From assembly GCA_017303715.1 (NCBI GenBank), contig JAFLBZ010000009.1, positions 1-64,000 on the forward strand: a stretch of DNA of 64,000 bases. The letters are read 5' to 3'. Below the pieces are notes generated by a model. The model was not told where the DNA came from. It made no database searches and worked only from the letters and a program-made list of their open reading frames with translations. How positions within the stretch are numbered: the first letter of the stretch is position 1; each line of letters opens with the position of its first letter. Positions 21,351-52,371 of the stretch are shown in pieces. This stretch comes from Rhodothermia bacterium. Its GTDB lineage: Bacteria; Bacteroidota; Rhodothermia; Rhodothermales; UBA2364. Made by a program: the position numbers and the translations under genes.

Positions 21351-21770
21351 AAAAAAAGGGTAAAATTGAGGAAGGTAGCTTTTGTTGGTGGTGAGGTGAA
21401 CTTCGGTTGAAGTGCGCATCAAAATACAGGAAATTTGAAAGGATTGCAAGGAGTCCGAACACAAAACGTTCACATACGAAGGGTTGAAAACACATGCTTT
21501 TCGGGTTAAACAGACGACAAACCCATTTTTGAAAGGACGGGCAACCTTATCAGGACGGAATCTTCGTAGAAAACCGTTTCGGAACTAACGGCAGAGCACA
21601 ATCGGTTCGGCATATGCTTCTTTTCAAGGGTGCAGATGCACGGTCGTGTATCTGCCATAAGACCATTTATGCAACAACGCGAAAGTGCGCTTCCTCTTCA
21701 GTCCTCTGAAAGCACCCATAGCCCTTAACCCTACGAAGAAGGCTTCTTGGCTCTTGATTATTTTTCTTCA
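21351..21770. other. 420-bp gene-free stretch with a lone copy of the 45.8-kb repeat core
   Basis: No open frame of any quality. Bases 21560-21574 (ATCTTCGTAGAAAAC) match exactly the conserved spacer of the hairpin repeats at 45.8-46.2 kb, so a degenerate solitary unit probably lies here. A change to AT-rich sequence occurs near 21780 and marks the left edge of the accessory patch. Confidence 0.5.
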
Positions 21771-43494: not shown

Positions 43495-44448
43495 ATGAAA
43501 GTAATAGACATCATTGAACGTGCCAAAAACCCCTTGGTCTCATATGAAATTATTCCACCGAAACGTGGTGGAACTATCCAACAGATATTTGAACTCATCG
43601 AACCGTTGCAAAAATTCAACCCTCCATTCATTGATGTGACCAGTCATGCCGCCGAAGTGCAGTACGAGGAGTTGGCGAATGGTGTTGTCAAGCGGACGGT
43701 AAAGCGGAAAAGGCCAGGGACATTGGGTATGTGTGCTGCCATTAAAGGGAAGTTTGGTATCGAAACGGTTCCTCATTTACTTTGTGAGGGCTTTACACGC
43801 GAAGAAACAGAAGATGCGCTGATCGAGTTGAATTATCTTGGGATCCAAAATGTTTTGGCCCTGCGAGGGGATCAGCATGGATTTTCAAAGCCCATTGCGA
43901 CAAACCGCTCCCGTAATGATTTTGCTTCGGACTTGGTAAAGCAGATAACAGCCATGAATCGCGGTGAGTATTTAGAAGAGATGTTGGATGCCGCGGGAAC
44001 CGATTTTTGCATTGGTGTGGCCGGTTATCCGGAAAAGCATTTTGAGTCGCCGAATATGCAGCGGGACATACATTATTTAAAGCAAAAAGTGGATGCTGGT
44101 GCGGCTTATATTGTAACGCAAATGTTTTTTGACAATCGGCATTTCTTTACATTCGTGGAGACTTGTCGTGCCGCTGGAATTACGGTTCCGATTATTCCAG
44201 GTCTTAAAGTTTTGACGACAAAGAACCATCTAAAATCGTTGCCCAAAAGCTTTTATTTAGAACTGCCAGAAGAATTGGTACAAGAGATCGAACAAGCACC
44301 TAAAGAAAGGGTGCCGGAGATTGGTATGAAGTGGGCGATAAAACAGGCGGAAGAATTGCTGTCAAATGGATATAATGTACATTTTTACATTATGCAACAA
44401 GCCAAACACATTGTGCCAGTGGTAGAAGCCCTATATAAAATGGCGTAA
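43495..44448 (+). CDS. metF: methylenetetrahydrofolate reductase
   Basis: FAD enzyme reducing 5,10-methylene-THF to 5-methyl-THF, the methyl donor for methionine synthase. 317 residues, a normal bacterial length. Seen are the TIM-barrel start LVSYEIIPPKRGGTIQQIFELIEPL with the catalytic Glu, DVTSHAA, the FAD loop NVLALRGDQ, IGVAGYPEKHFES, KVDAGAAYIVTQMFFDNRHF and the C-terminal IPGLKVLTTK. No folate or cobalamin gene is adjacent. The 42-bp divergent gap is too small for a SAM riboswitch, and none is visible. Confidence 0.95.
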   Translation: MKVIDIIERAKNPLVSYEIIPPKRGGTIQQIFELIEPLQKFNPPFIDVTSHAAEVQYEELANGVVKRTVKRKRPGTLGMCAAIKGKFGIETVPHLLCEGFTREETEDALIELNYLGIQNVLALRGDQHGFSKPIATNRSRNDFASDLVKQITAMNRGEYLEEMLDAAGTDFCIGVAGYPEKHFESPNMQRDIHYLKQKVDAGAAYIVTQMFFDNRHFFTFVETCRAAGITVPIIPGLKVLTTKNHLKSLPKSFYLELPEELVQEIEQAPKERVPEIGMKWAIKQAEELLSNGYNVHFYIMQQAKHIVPVVEALYKMA

Positions 44449-45230: not shown

Positions 45231-45539
45231 TTATACAAAAGACGAAATAATGGCAGAAGGCATCAAATATTTTTGATATACCAACAAACAACTTTCTTCG
45301 CTACAATAAACGGACGACCATAATTCGTCTAATTCAAGCATATCCTCGCTTCTTCGAAGCATTTGGAATACGCCCCCAAGCCCAAGCCTCGTCTCCCAAG
45401 CCCAAGCCTTGCATTTATCCTTGCGATTCCCCACTCCTTTTCTACCGCTTTTGACGATGTGTTCGGAACCACATTTACGGCAGTATTGATGTTTGATAAC
45501 CGTAACCGAGGTTTTTGTAGCAAAGTTAAACATTACCAT
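45231..45539 (-). pseudogene. IS1-like transposase remnant
   Basis: The 102-residue frame starts with an IS1 InsA-like zinc-finger region (YCRKCGSEHIVKSGRKGVGNRKDKCK) but the second CXXC half is replaced by AWAWETRLGLGG, encoded by a repeated 15-bp sequence. It then continues with LELDELWSSVYCSEES, which resembles the start of the InsB catalytic region (EVDEMWSF). The transposase is therefore internally rearranged and truncated. No terminal inverted repeats were found. It lies at the left edge of the foreign region. Confidence 0.65.
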
Positions 45540-45672
45540 CAGGAGGTGGGATCTGGTGGCTTTAGCTTCTGGAAACGGGAACTACGTTATCGGCTTGTTA
45601 TTAATCCATTTGAAGGTATCATTGGGTGCATGTGTTTGGCATTTGGGGTTAGGGCTATTTTTGTTTGATGCC

Positions 45673-45743
45673 AGAGCTACGCTCCTCTTTCTTTAATTGA
45701 ATGTACCTGCATCTACGAAGATTTTAGAGCTACGCTCCTCTTT
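45673..45743 (-). repeat. two-unit hairpin repeat, 53-bp period (GAGCGTAGCTC type)
   Basis: AGAGCTACGCTCCTCTTT occurs at 45673-45690 and 45726-45743, exactly 53 bp apart. Read on the minus strand, each unit is a hairpin (GAGC GTAG CTC) and the copies are joined by a spacer containing ATCTTCGTAGA, the same core as in the next array. It is therefore the same design in the opposite orientation with a different stem. Confidence 0.75.
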
Positions 45744-45773
45744 GCTTTTGTGTGTACAAAAATTGCTCCCTGT

Positions 45774-46250
45774 AAAAAACAGAAGCGTTAGCACCGCCAT
45801 CTTCATAGAATAAGGTATTACAAGGGCAAAAAACAGGGGCGTCAGCCCCGCCATCTTGATAGAAAAGGTATTGCAAGCGCAAAAACAGGGGCGTTCGCCC
45901 TGCCATCTTGATAGAAAAGATATTGCAAGCGCAAAACAGGGACATTAGCACCGCCATCTTCATAGAAAAGATATTGCAAGCGCAAAAAACAGGGGCGTCA
46001 GCCCCGCCATCTTGATAGAATAAGGTATTGCAAGGGCAAAAACAGAAGCGTTAGCACCGCCATCTTCGTAGAAAACGTATTGCAAGCGCAAAAAACAGAG
46101 GCGTTAGCCCTGCCATCTTCGTAGAAAACGTATTGCAAGCGCAAAAAACAGGGGCGTCAGCCCCGCCATCTTGATAGAATAAGGTATTGAAAGGGCAAAA
46201 ACAGGGGCGTCAGCCCTGCCATCTTCGTAGAAAAAAGCATTGTAATAGCG
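45774..46250 (+). repeat. nine-unit tandem array of 51-54 bp hairpin repeats
   Basis: Nine consecutive units fill 477 bp. Each begins with an A-tract and CAG, then a palindrome-like core (best copies GGGGC GTCA GCCCC, perfect 5-bp stem; others GAAGC GTTA GCACC, GGGGC GTTC GCCCT), then the conserved CCATCTT(G/C)(A/G)TAGAA and a spacer ending GCAAG(C/G)GC. Units 5 and 8 are near-identical and suggest duplication of blocks of units. No ORF explains them; the reverse frames that stay open through them are a by-product of the repeat. Compare REP-type intergenic repeats; no RAYT transposase is visible in the window. Confidence 0.85.
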
Positions 46251-46355
46251 AAAAGTGGAGCGAGCAAGCTTGTTCAAACCCACCTAAACAACCCGACCCG
46301 CTACTTGTACGTTTTGAGGTGTAAACAGTACGCGCAGTTAGATCGTACAATGGCG

Positions 46356-48003: not shown

Positions 48004-51000
48004 GTGTTAGACAGTATTATAAAATTTAGCATAAAAAACAAGTTAGTCATTGGAATAATGACCTTGTTACTCATCTTATGGGGAAGTTGGAGTGCTACCA
48101 AACTGCCCATTGATGCCGTTCCTGATATTACCAATAATCAGGTGCAAATAATTACGCTTTGTCCTACATTGGCAGGACAGGAAGTAGAGCAATTAGTTAC
48201 ATTTCCTATTGAACAAAGCATTGCCAACCTGCCCGATTTAGAAGAAACCCGAAGTATTTCACGGTTTGGGCTTTCGGTTATTACGGTTGTATTTGATGAT
48301 GATGTGGATATATATTTTGCCCGACAGCTTGTCAATGAAAAACTGAAAGAAGCCGAAGAAAAAATCCCAAAAGGCATTGGCACACCCGAACTTGCACCTG
48401 TAAGCACAGGTTTGGGCGAAGTGTACCAATACATCATACACCCCAAAAAAGGGAGTGAACATAAATACAATGCCAAAGACTTGCGTACTATGCAGGATTG
48501 GATTGTTGCCCGACAGCTAAACGGAACAAAAGGCATAGCCGAAGTAAACAGTTTTGGTGGCGAACTGAAACAATATGAAGTAGCCGTAAATCCCAACCGC
48601 TTAAAGGCAATGGGTGTAAGTGTTACCGATATTTTCAATGCTCTTGAAAAGAACAATCAGAATACAGGTGGTGCATACATTGACAAAAAACCAAATGCTT
48701 ACTTCATTCGGGGTATTGGTTTGGTTACTTCGTTGGAAGATGTAAAAAACATAGCTGTAAAAAACACTAACGGAAGTATTCCGATTTTTATAAAAGATGT
48801 TGCAGAAGTTCGTTTTGGTAATGCGGTTCGCTACGGAGCATTAACCTACAATGGCGAAGTAGATGCCGTTGGCGGTGTGGTAATGATGCTCAAAGGCGAA
48901 AACAGCAACGAAGTAGTAAAACGTATCAAAGAAAAATTGCCTGTCATTCAGAAATCTTTGCCCGATGATATTGTCATTGAGCCTTATTTGGACAGAACAG
49001 ATTTAGTTGGCAGAGCAATCAGCACCGTAGAAAAGAATTTAATTGAGGGAGCGTTGATTGTCATTTTCGTGTTGGTGCTGTTTTTGGGAAATTTAAGAGC
49101 AGGTTTAATTGTGGCTTCCGCTATTCCGTTGTCAATGCTGTTTGCTTTGGGAATGATGAATGTTTTCGGAGTAAGTGCCAATTTAATGAGTTTAGGAGCT
49201 ATTGACTTTGGTTTGATTGTGGACGGTGCAGTTATTATTGTAGAAGCCACTTTGCACCATTTGGGTTTGCGAAAATCAATGAACAAGCTGACACAGCAGG
49301 AAATGGACAACGAAGTTTTTGTGTCCGCTTCCAAAATCAGAAACAGTGCAGCGTTTGGCGAAATCATTATTTTAATCGTGTACATTCCTATTCTCACATT
49401 GGTAGGCGTTGAGGGCAAAATGTTTACACCAATGGCTAAAACAGTAGGATTTGCCATTTTGGGAGCATTGATTTTGTCGCTTACTTATATACCAATGATG
49501 TGTGCTTTGTTTTTGTCAAAAAAAGTTTCACACAAAGAAACCATTTCAGACAAGATGATGAACTACCTGCAAAGCATTTACCAACCGCTTTTGCAGAAAG
49601 CCGTAAAAATAAAATATTGGATTGTTGCTTCGACCGCTCTACTCTTTGCCTTTTCCCTTTTGCTCTTTAAAAATTTAGGTGGCGAATTTATACCACAATT
49701 ACAAGAGGGCGATTTTGCGTTTCATTGCATATTGCCACAAGGCAGTTCGTTGAGCCAAAGTATTGAAACTTCAATGCAGGCATCAAGAATTATCAAAGAG
49801 TTTGACGAAGTAAAAATGGTAGTCGGCAAAACAGGTGCAGCAGAAGTTCCTACCGACCCAATGCCACCCGAAGCCACCGATATGATGATAATTCTGAAAC
49901 CGCAAAAAGATTGGAAAACAAAAAAGAGTTATGATGAGTTAGCCGATGAAATTTTTGAAAAATTAGAAGTCATTCCGGGTATATTCTTTGAAAAAAATCA
50001 ACCTATCCAAATGCGTTTCAACGAACTGATGACAGGCATACGGCAAGATGTAGCGGTTAAGATTTTCGGGGAAAATTTAGACAGTCTTGCCATTTATGCA
50101 GATAAGGTAAGTAAGGTTATTCAAACAGTAAACGGAGCGACTTCGCCACAGGTAGAACGGGTTAGCGGATTGCCACAAATCAATGTAGAATACGATAGAA
50201 CACGACTTGCCAATTACGGTATCAATGTAGAAGATGTAAACAATGTAGTAAGCACCGCATTTGCAGGAAAAAGTGCAGGACAGGTTTTTGAAAACGAAAG
50301 GCGTTTTGATTTGGTTGTGCGGTTAGACAGCACTTATAGAACCGATATAGACGATGTAAGTAATTTGATGATACCGACCAATACAGGCAATCAAATACCA
50401 TTATCGCAGGTAGCAACTATCAGTTACAAATTAGGTGCTGCACAAATCAGCCGTGAAAGTAGCAAACGCAGAATTGTAATCGGTTTCAATGTATCGGGTA
50501 GAGATGTACAAAGTGTGGTAGAAGATATTCAGCAGAAATTGAACGAACAGGTAAAATTGCCGACAGGTTATTATTTCACTTATGGCGGACAGTTTGAGAA
50601 TTTGCAAAAAGCAAGTAAACGCCTGATGATTGCTGTACCTGTTTCGCTGTTTCTCATTTTTTCATTGCTGTACTTTACATTCCGTTCACTCAAACAGGCA
50701 AGTCTGATTTTTACCGCAATCCCAATGAGTGCCATAGGTGGCGTGTTTGCGTTGCTGTTGCGTGGTATGCCTTTCAGCATTTCGGCAGGTATCGGCTTTA
50801 TTGCTTTGTTTGGTGTAGCAGTATTAAACGGAATTGTCTTAATCGGAACTTTCAACCAATTAGAAAAAGACGGAGTTAAAGACATTTTCAAACGAGTATT
50901 TGACGGCACAAAGGAAAGGTTGCGACCTGTACTAATGACGGCAACCGTAGCAAGTTTGGGCTTTTTGCCTATGGCATTAAGCACAGGTGCAGGAGCAGAA

Positions 51001-52371
51001 GTACAAAAACCATTGGCAACCGTTGTTATTGGCGGATTGATTACGGCTACTTTCCTTACGCTGTTTGTACTGCCTTTGCTGTATATCATTTTCAATTCAA
51101 AAATCAACATCAGAAAAAAAGGAAAAATGAAATCCGTTACAACCGTAATTGTGTTGTTGCTTTCTGTTTTAAGTTTCAATGCAAATGCTCAAAACAAAAA
51201 AATAATTGGTGTAGATGAAGCGATAAACATTGCATTGCAAAACAACGGAAATATAAAAGCGAAAGATTTTGAAATAAAATCGGCTCAAAGTCTGAAAAGA
51301 ACATCGGGCGAATTACCGAAATTAGATTTTAATGCACAGTTGGGACAATACAACAGTATAAAGTTTGACCAATCTTTTCAAGTAGCACAAACGATACCGT
51401 TTCCGACTTTGTTCGGTGCTAAAAAACAACTGATAAATGCCGAAGTAAAAGGCAAAGAATTACAAAGTGAAATAACCGTATTGGAGTTAAAAAATCAAGT
51501 GCGTACTTATTTCTATCAAATTCAGTATTTGCAGAATAATCAAAAGCAGTTGTTGTATTTGGATAGTTTGTACAATGATTTTATCAAAGTGGCAGAACTG
51601 CGTTACAAAACAGGCGACACCAAAAAAGTAGAAATCAGTACAGCACAAGCCAAGCAAGGCGAAATCAATTTATTGCTGAAACAAAATGGAGTTTATCTCA
51701 ATAATGCTTATCAAAATTTACAGGCATTGATGAATACAAAAGAACCGTTTGAAGTTGCCAATGATACAGATTTTAAGCCTTTGCAGGTAAGCACTTTGTT
51801 AGACAGCACAGCCATTGCAAACCACCCGACAATTAAGGCGTTGTATCAAGATATAATCATTGCAGAACAAACAAAAAAGGTAGAGAAAGCACAGGGTTTG
51901 CCCGATTTTACGATTGGTTACACTAATCAGTCTTTAATAGGTTTTCAAACTATAAACGGACAGGAGCAGTATTTTAATTCGGGCAATCGGTTCAGTTATG
52001 TAAGCGTTGGTGTTTCTATTCCTTTGACTTTCGGAGCTACAAAAGCAAGGATAAAATCTTTGGACTATCAAAAACAAGCCATTGAAGCCAACACCAAGCA
52101 ACAGCAAATTTTGTTGGAAACACAGTTTCAAAATGCCATACAGCAGTATCAGCAGGATTTGCAGGAGTTCAATTACTATCAGCAACAAGCCTTGCCTAAT
52201 GCAAACGATATTGTTTCATCGGCTCAATTAGGTTATCGCACAGGCGATATAAGCTATGTGGAGTATTTGTATGCTTTGCAAACGGCAACAGACATTCAGT
52301 TGAATTACCTAAAAAGTATTCAGCAGGTCAATCAATCGGTCATCAATATTTATTCAATAATCAATCAATAA
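48004..52371 (+). CDS. CzcA/CusA-type heavy-metal RND pump fused to a TolC-like outer-membrane factor
   Basis: 1455 residues. Residues 1-1040 are a complete heavy-metal RND exporter: signature start FSIKNKLVIGIMTLLLILWG, the TM4 proton-relay GAIDFGLIVDGAVIIVEA, porter domains with GMNVFGVSANLMSLG and the C-terminal six-helix half. From Met1042 (ATG at 51127) a second signal-peptide-like segment, KSVTTVIVLLLSVLSFNANAQ, starts an outer-membrane-factor domain (DEAINIALQNNGNIKAKDFEI...). The start is GTG at 48004. The fusion is a recurrent form in Bacteroidota. The adaptor gene begins 6 bp later. The exported ion (Co/Zn/Cd or Cu/Ag) cannot be set from the motifs seen. Confidence 0.93.
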   Translation: MLDSIIKFSIKNKLVIGIMTLLLILWGSWSATKLPIDAVPDITNNQVQIITLCPTLAGQEVEQLVTFPIEQSIANLPDLEETRSISRFGLSVITVVFDDDVDIYFARQLVNEKLKEAEEKIPKGIGTPELAPVSTGLGEVYQYIIHPKKGSEHKYNAKDLRTMQDWIVARQLNGTKGIAEVNSFGGELKQYEVAVNPNRLKAMGVSVTDIFNALEKNNQNTGGAYIDKKPNAYFIRGIGLVTSLEDVKNIAVKNTNGSIPIFIKDVAEVRFGNAVRYGALTYNGEVDAVGGVVMMLKGENSNEVVKRIKEKLPVIQKSLPDDIVIEPYLDRTDLVGRAISTVEKNLIEGALIVIFVLVLFLGNLRAGLIVASAIPLSMLFALGMMNVFGVSANLMSLGAIDFGLIVDGAVIIVEATLHHLGLRKSMNKLTQQEMDNEVFVSASKIRNSAAFGEIIILIVYIPILTLVGVEGKMFTPMAKTVGFAILGALILSLTYIPMMCALFLSKKVSHKETISDKMMNYLQSIYQPLLQKAVKIKYWIVASTALLFAFSLLLFKNLGGEFIPQLQEGDFAFHCILPQGSSLSQSIETSMQASRIIKEFDEVKMVVGKTGAAEVPTDPMPPEATDMMIILKPQKDWKTKKSYDELADEIFEKLEVIPGIFFEKNQPIQMRFNELMTGIRQDVAVKIFGENLDSLAIYADKVSKVIQTVNGATSPQVERVSGLPQINVEYDRTRLANYGINVEDVNNVVSTAFAGKSAGQVFENERRFDLVVRLDSTYRTDIDDVSNLMIPTNTGNQIPLSQVATISYKLGAAQISRESSKRRIVIGFNVSGRDVQSVVEDIQQKLNEQVKLPTGYYFTYGGQFENLQKASKRLMIAVPVSLFLIFSLLYFTFRSLKQASLIFTAIPMSAIGGVFALLLRGMPFSISAGIGFIALFGVAVLNGIVLIGTFNQLEKDGVKDIFKRVFDGTKERLRPVLMTATVASLGFLPMALSTGAGAEVQKPLATVVIGGLITATFLTLFVLPLLYIIFNSKINIRKKGKMKSVTTVIVLLLSVLSFNANAQNKKIIGVDEAINIALQNNGNIKAKDFEIKSAQSLKRTSGELPKLDFNAQLGQYNSIKFDQSFQVAQTIPFPTLFGAKKQLINAEVKGKELQSEITVLELKNQVRTYFYQIQYLQNNQKQLLYLDSLYNDFIKVAELRYKTGDTKKVEISTAQAKQGEINLLLKQNGVYLNNAYQNLQALMNTKEPFEVANDTDFKPLQVSTLLDSTAIANHPTIKALYQDIIIAEQTKKVEKAQGLPDFTIGYTNQSLIGFQTINGQEQYFNSGNRFSYVSVGVSIPLTFGATKARIKSLDYQKQAIEANTKQQQILLETQFQNAIQQYQQDLQEFNYYQQQALPNANDIVSSAQLGYRTGDISYVEYLYALQTATDIQLNYLKSIQQVNQSVINIYSIINQ

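Follow-up and report, generated by a model that had tools for sequence, protein, structure and literature searches.

Two sets of short hairpins lie side by side in opposite orientation in a Rhodothermia bacterium genome, and the question that this locus raises is what kind of repeat they are and what put them there. The window analysed here is a stretch of 64,000 nucleotides (assembly GCA_017303715.1, contig JAFLBZ010000009.1, positions 1 to 64,000). A first-pass annotation of its sequence had described both sets as repeating at about 53 bp with one common spacer after the hairpin, and had likened them to REP-type repeats mobilised by RAYT transposases. Tandem Repeats Finder, a repeat search and R1, a 38-nt sequence model built from 29 units, between them located the two sets where that annotation had placed them. 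The repetition also held in both: the plus array (45774–46234) has a period of 53, 8.7 copies and a score of 622 in Tandem Repeats Finder, which reported a higher-order period of 159 bp as well, and the two GAGC units that the repeat search found at 45673 and 45726 are separated by 53 bp. In the 64-kb window R1 recovered nine plus units (45777–46235), one full and one truncated minus unit, and no further full-length unit (Table 1). Distances from unit to unit in the window arrays are 51–54 bp.

The minus hairpins have the stem GGAGC-GTA-GCTCT and the plus hairpins GGGGC-NNNN-GCCCC, with variants. The common spacer was borne out in part. An exact ATCTTCGTAGA tail is present in three of the nine plus units (at 46062, 46115 and 46221) and in one of the two minus units, the distal one, but the remaining units differ: four plus units carry TTGATAGA and two TTCATAGA, and the minus unit proximal to the gene relic described below ends in ...GGCATC. 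A lone bare tail, ATCTTCGTAGAAAA, lies at 21557–21574 between ORFs, without a hairpin unit.

Table 1 Features of the repeat locus, in window coordinates.
Feature	Position	Strand	Evidence or remarks
IS1-like transposase remnant (ORF 45231–45539) and its end	45231..45599	-	partial copies at C6, C57
Relic of first ~33 nt of subclass 1.2 Y1 gene	45610..45642	-	blastn 91% to C61:417-449, E 5e-7
A-family unit nearest gene relic, truncated after GGCATC	45667..45690	-	R1 15.2 bits, model 2-25 only
A-family unit, full, ATCTTCGTAGA tail	45709..45743	-	R1 27.8 bits
Linker common to composite copies (GCTTTTGTGTGTACAAAAATTGCTCCCTG...)	45744..45773	.	also C6, C13 (two loci), C20, C24
B unit 1, TTCATAGA tail	45777..45813	+	R1 28.4 bits
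B unit 2, TTGATAGA	45831..45867	+	R1 30.7 bits
B unit 3, TTGATAGA	45883..45918	+	R1 31.9 bits
B unit 4, TTCATAGA	45934..45969	+	R1 32.4 bits
B unit 5, TTGATAGA	45987..46023	+	R1 29.9 bits
B unit 6, TTCGTAGA	46040..46076	+	R1 31.1 bits
B unit 7, TTCGTAGA	46093..46129	+	R1 36.6 bits
B unit 8, TTGATAGA	46146..46182	+	R1 29.9 bits
B unit 9, TTCGTAGA	46199..46235	+	R1 37.1 bits
Right end common to composite copies (about AAAAGCATTGTAATAGCG)	46233..46252	+	also C2, C6, C13 (two loci), C24

A mobile origin had been held unlikely should the repeats occur only here, in a genome that lacks a RAYT gene. That objection did not apply: the genome holds 27 copies of ATCTTCGTAGAAAA against none of the reversed pattern, and a search for a Y1 gene (PF01797) returned one match, at contig C61. 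With R1, which scored 150 candidates per genome, at least 148 units were found in this 4.35 Mb genome; congener G002 gave 16 and congener G001 gave 3, all weak. They fall into three stem families with a common tail, A (GAGC/GCTC), B (GGGGC/GCCCC) and C (GCCCC-GTA-GGGGT), the last absent from the window, and their layout is hairpin-nGnCATCT-TCGTAGA. A stem of at least 4 bp lies just 5′ of the tail in 85% of tail-anchored sites genome-wide, versus 10% in shuffles, and neighbouring units are spaced 50–54 bp apart (mode 52); this enrichment and constant spacing exclude chance. Tail-anchored runs hold 1–9 units. Several arrays lie near contig ends (e.g., C20, C37, C39, C41, C45, C50, C61), and thus the copy number is probably underestimated. 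The C39 array has a two-unit higher-order period of 102 bp. C-family arrays at L014, L084, L085, L087 and L094 (C14, C38, C46, C25 and C17) alternate with other hairpins, GTTCAGGGCTAAAGCCC, GCCCTGAAGGACGG and AACCCCATGCTTCAGCGTGGGGTT, in blocks that repeat every ~300–450 bp. A CRISPR array was rejected because the spacers recur (e.g., AAGRTATTGCAAGCGCAAAA in 8 copies).

The units are nearly all extragenic, with 8 of 133 tail-anchored sites inside ORFs versus an ORF coverage of 45%, and three B units resemble intrinsic terminators on the minus strand (GGGGCTGACGCCCC then TGTTTTTT), as would suit arrays retained because they act as terminators, attenuators or small-RNA genes. We find this reading barely credible, since the plus strand has no T-run, an Rfam scan of 44.5–47.5 kb gave sub-threshold, chance-type matches and no family at gathering score, folding of single units is no better than that of shuffles beyond z −1.5, and the conserved CATCTTCGTAGA outside the stem is left unexplained by termination. 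A possible further hairpin within the tail (TCT-TCGT-AGA) would have 3–4 bp, and its folding energy is not significant.

The gene at C61 encodes a product of 154 aa (P0001) and begins shortly 3′ of three A units; further 5′ lie B units in the opposite orientation and one more A unit. Its G002 orthologue, 76% identical, has similar hairpins on both sides, inverted downstream. P0001 scores above the threshold of the NCBIfam model transpos_IS200 (NF033573; 75.3 bits, cut-off 55) and below that of the RAYT model REP_Tyr_transpos (NF047646; 32.4 bits, cut-off 80). Residues D54, H55, H57, W95, Q96, Y115, Q119, H122 and H123 are invariant in 23 homologues, and the P0001 family has the motifs (DHxH, WQ, Y...Q..HH) and the length (about 150 aa) of TnpA subclass 1.2. 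By its sequence, and with the subclass assigned at motif level, P0001 is therefore a TnpA subclass 1.2-type enzyme rather than a canonical RAYT. Its AlphaFold model (mean pLDDT 87) best matches the TnpA structures of ISDra2 and IS608, with the E. coli RAYT structure 4er8 ranking lower, which predicts an IS200/IS605 TnpA fold. A second Y1 gene of the genome (L218:1111-1725; G000:C7 ~49.6–50.1 kb) is subclass 2.4-like (NHVH, WQ, YIWNNP). An internal palindrome, GTAGAGACGTTGCATTGCAACGTCTCTAC, lies in frame within it, and the genes on its two sides resemble a type III restriction-modification pair. Given its subclass and its different palindrome, we judged it an unlikely owner of the arrays.

The passed IS200 model and the closeness to ISDra2 and IS608 TnpA would also be expected of an ordinary IS200/IS605-type insertion sequence with the hairpins as its ends, in which case the arrays would be debris of IS copies and solo ends, without a REP-like life. 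This is unlikely in our judgement: there is one intact gene for at least 148 units, gene relics are far fewer than array units, at homologous genes the hairpins on one side are inverted relative to those on the other, and the far homologues of P0001 are diverged and low-copy, unlike near-identical multicopy insertion sequences. A RAYT/REP-like origin of the arrays is well supported, because the Y1 gene adjoins the same hairpins and the window array holds a relic of its 5′ end. In this respect the first-pass annotation stood. The RAYT that it had invoked gave way to an enzyme that passes the IS200 model and fails that for RAYTs, and the insertion hot spot that it had proposed is a conjecture that the IS1-like piece next to the relic and the G+C-poor stretch to the right do not by themselves bear out. 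Mobilisation of the units by the transposase would follow as an inference from this association.

The relic in the window belongs to a composite whose parts are common to several loci, in the order seen here: gene relic, two A units (minus), linker, n B units (plus) and GCATTGTAATAGC. Five arrays besides that of the window carry relics of the gene start, with 33 nt at 91% identity at C6, as in the window; the relics at C13 and C20 span 58 nt (88%), that at a second C13 locus 43 nt and that at C19 32 nt. Left of the window relic, the sequence reads as an IS1-like remnant that adjoins the Y1 relic and is outside the repeat unit itself; it ends at ~45595–45599, beside or within the relic, and its ORF has no Pfam match at E 0.01. 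A sequence of ~40 bp at 45555–45595, GGTGRCTTTAGCTTCTGGAAACGGGAGCTACGTTATCGG, is apparently the end of this element (also at L019, L016 and L021); it lies left of the array in the window and at C6, and right of it at C24 and C13.

Since hairpins precede the Y1 gene and a remnant of its first nucleotides adjoins the window array, we read the array as a block left by a decayed unit. Taken as a whole, the findings are probably best explained by a REP-plus-transposase unit (REPtron) that has decayed and whose repeat block is the window array. Counted against this explanation are the single copy of the subclass 1.2-type gene in this genome, with other arrays lacking the gene, and the higher-order periods of 102 and 159 bp, which fit plain slippage or recombination as well. 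The segment past an MTHFR-like gene (43495–44448) is absent from the matching place in G001 and G002, and the array is therefore not ancestral there. We sought an empty site at the orthologous place in these two congeners; the whole segment differs and no clean insertion could be read. Just to the right of the array begins a G+C-poor stretch. Between 46300 and 59000 the G+C content is 0.32–0.41, versus 0.43–0.46 around it, with a gene-poor left edge, and a 1455-aa ORF in this stretch (48004–52371) reads as an RND efflux pump with an outer-membrane efflux part.

The association of hairpin, tail and gene extends well beyond this genome. The layout was first seen by eye in homologues L110–L137 and was then tested on a different collection of 80 named loci, mostly from Bacteroidota, with some from Ignavibacteria, Planctomycetota, Marinimicrobia and others, in which perfect hairpins with a stem of at least 5 were scored. 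A GTAG placed 9 nt 3′ of a hairpin was found 61 times in 76 kb near the gene versus once in 336 kb far from it. For distances of 7–10 nt the density was 1.35/kb near versus 0.048/kb far, or ~28-fold, and only 0.107/kb at class-2 RAYT loci of the same phylum (n=28). The canonical REP rule, GT[AG]G 0–2 nt 5′ of a hairpin, gave 0.066/kb near the 80 genes, with no clear enrichment over far flanks. The start codon has a hairpin within 60 nt in 44 of 79 cases, the stop codon in 47 of 79 and both do in 31 of 78, versus 5% of random 60-mers. These hairpins mostly have a GTA loop and a GAC(A/C)T tail and are inverted between the two sides of the gene. GTAG is missing from the gene-proximal upstream hairpins in 49 of 49 scorable cases, many of which stop after GACCTG or GACATC, and is present in 29 of 113 distal ones. 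A further point counted against the REPtron explanation is that the strict hairpin-GTAG definition applies within 500 nt at only 35 of the 80 loci. Array periods in other genera are mostly 48–55 bp. Near-constant periods occur in unrelated genomes at L140 (49 bp), L156 (54), L170 (53) and L185 (51–52), which is about five turns of the helix.

Over 392 genomes, the abundance of the tail is associated with presence of the gene. The gene family occurs in about a third of the sampled genomes of the phylum, and the tail pattern is commonest in the genome studied here (99 versus 5 reversed). A tail excess of at least 12 was found in 7 of 127 other gene-positive versus 0 of 264 gene-negative genomes (Fisher p 3e-4, Mann-Whitney p 0.03, with post hoc thresholds and kinship among genomes ignored). 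This correlation, the conserved catalytic residues and the period kept in unrelated genera all speak against an account in which the transposase spread the units once and their growth and spread are now left to the host alone, through slippage, recombination and hitch-hiking with mobile DNA, with the current gene uninvolved. We give that account little credence, even though the periods of 102 and 159 bp, the flanks common to composite copies over tens of bp and the lack of a nearby gene at most arrays are in line with it.

Following the REPtron explanation, the extragenic unit of ~52 nt, with a GC stem of ~5 bp, a loop of 3–4 nt, the tail nGnCATCTTCGTAGA and an A-rich spacer, would serve as substrate for a subclass 1.2 TnpA, a Y1/HUH transposase that acts on single strands. 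The enzyme would bind the unit in its folded, single-stranded form and cut on the 3′ side of the hairpin, close to the CATC/CCTG step, as suggested by the gene-proximal hairpins that stop there in several families and species. It could move single units or groups of units, and arrays would thereby be seeded by insertion. These may then grow and shrink by whole units, through the enzyme or replication slippage, to 2–9 copies. At the window locus the gene would have decayed, an IS1-like element would have landed in or beside its relic, and the array would have been left behind. More tentatively, the Y1 transposases of subclass 1.2 in Bacteroidota and neighbouring phyla might own a separate REP class of reversed polarity (hairpin, GACCTG/GACATC, TTnGTAG) and, jointly with this, the ~52-nt unit might form a full cassette for single-strand transposition, its left end being TTCGTAGA and its right end hairpin-CATC. 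We regard the two ideas together as possible rather than probable. If the unit is such a cassette, a new one could insert directly 3′ of an old one, and the enzyme itself would build head-to-tail arrays of fixed period.

A search of open-access texts turned up neither this hairpin class nor any REPs assigned to subclass 1.2, and a search for the repeat sequences returned unrelated papers only. Quentin et al. (2018) give subclass 1.2 the motifs DHxH, WQ and Y...Q..HH, list it with ‘no’ in the REP column and describe it as generally without typical IS200 terminal structures; their automatic REP search was built on the 5′-GTAG rule (PMC6006769). Such a rule would miss the hairpin class tied here to subclass 1.2 genes. 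This class offers a concrete substrate for the biochemistry of an uncharacterised enzyme group between IS200 transposases and domesticated RAYTs, and may lie behind some of the contig breaks and intergenic repeats in the phylum's genomes.

With TnpA subclass 1.2 the system shares motifs, a length of about 150, low copy number and occurrence in Bacteroidetes (PMC6006769); unlike the subclass as described, it has hairpins within 60 nt of over half of the genes on each side. Like IS200/IS605 elements (IS608, ISDra2), it has the TnpA fold, the catalytic residues, subterminal hairpins and, presumably, a cut 3′ of the right-end hairpin; unlike them, its flanking hairpins are inverted, its gene is single-copy and its solo hairpin arrays far outnumber the gene. 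The TIRtrons/TIRYTs likewise comprise a Y1 gene flanked by inverted repeats that are also dispersed as dimers or clusters, but in the main text of their description the TIRs carry GGGGWSAS or are unrelated, and a hairpin-9 nt-GTAG tail does not appear there (Di Nocera 2013, PMC3733652). The units resemble REPs and REPINs with class 2 RAYTs in being short, GC-rich, extragenic, high-copy hairpins, both dispersed and clustered (PMC2817692, PMC3116915, PMC8266576), and, as in a class 2 REPtron, hairpins flank a single-copy Y1/HUH gene, often inverted, with several stem subfamilies per gene. The cut sites of TnpA_REP enzymes are CT or CA, selected by way of GTAG (PMC8266576), and in the unit tails here CT or CA stands a few bases ahead of GTAG. 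The differences from class 2 are that GTAG lies 7–10 nt 3′ of the hairpin rather than 0–2 nt 5′, that stems are short and stand in head-to-tail arrays of a constant ~52 bp, and that the enzyme fails the RAYT model. We do not file the system as a canonical REP because it failed both the 5′-GTAG rule and the RAYT model when these were tried. Thus, the arrays and the Y1 gene are a variant of the REP/RAYT kind that works like a REP system.
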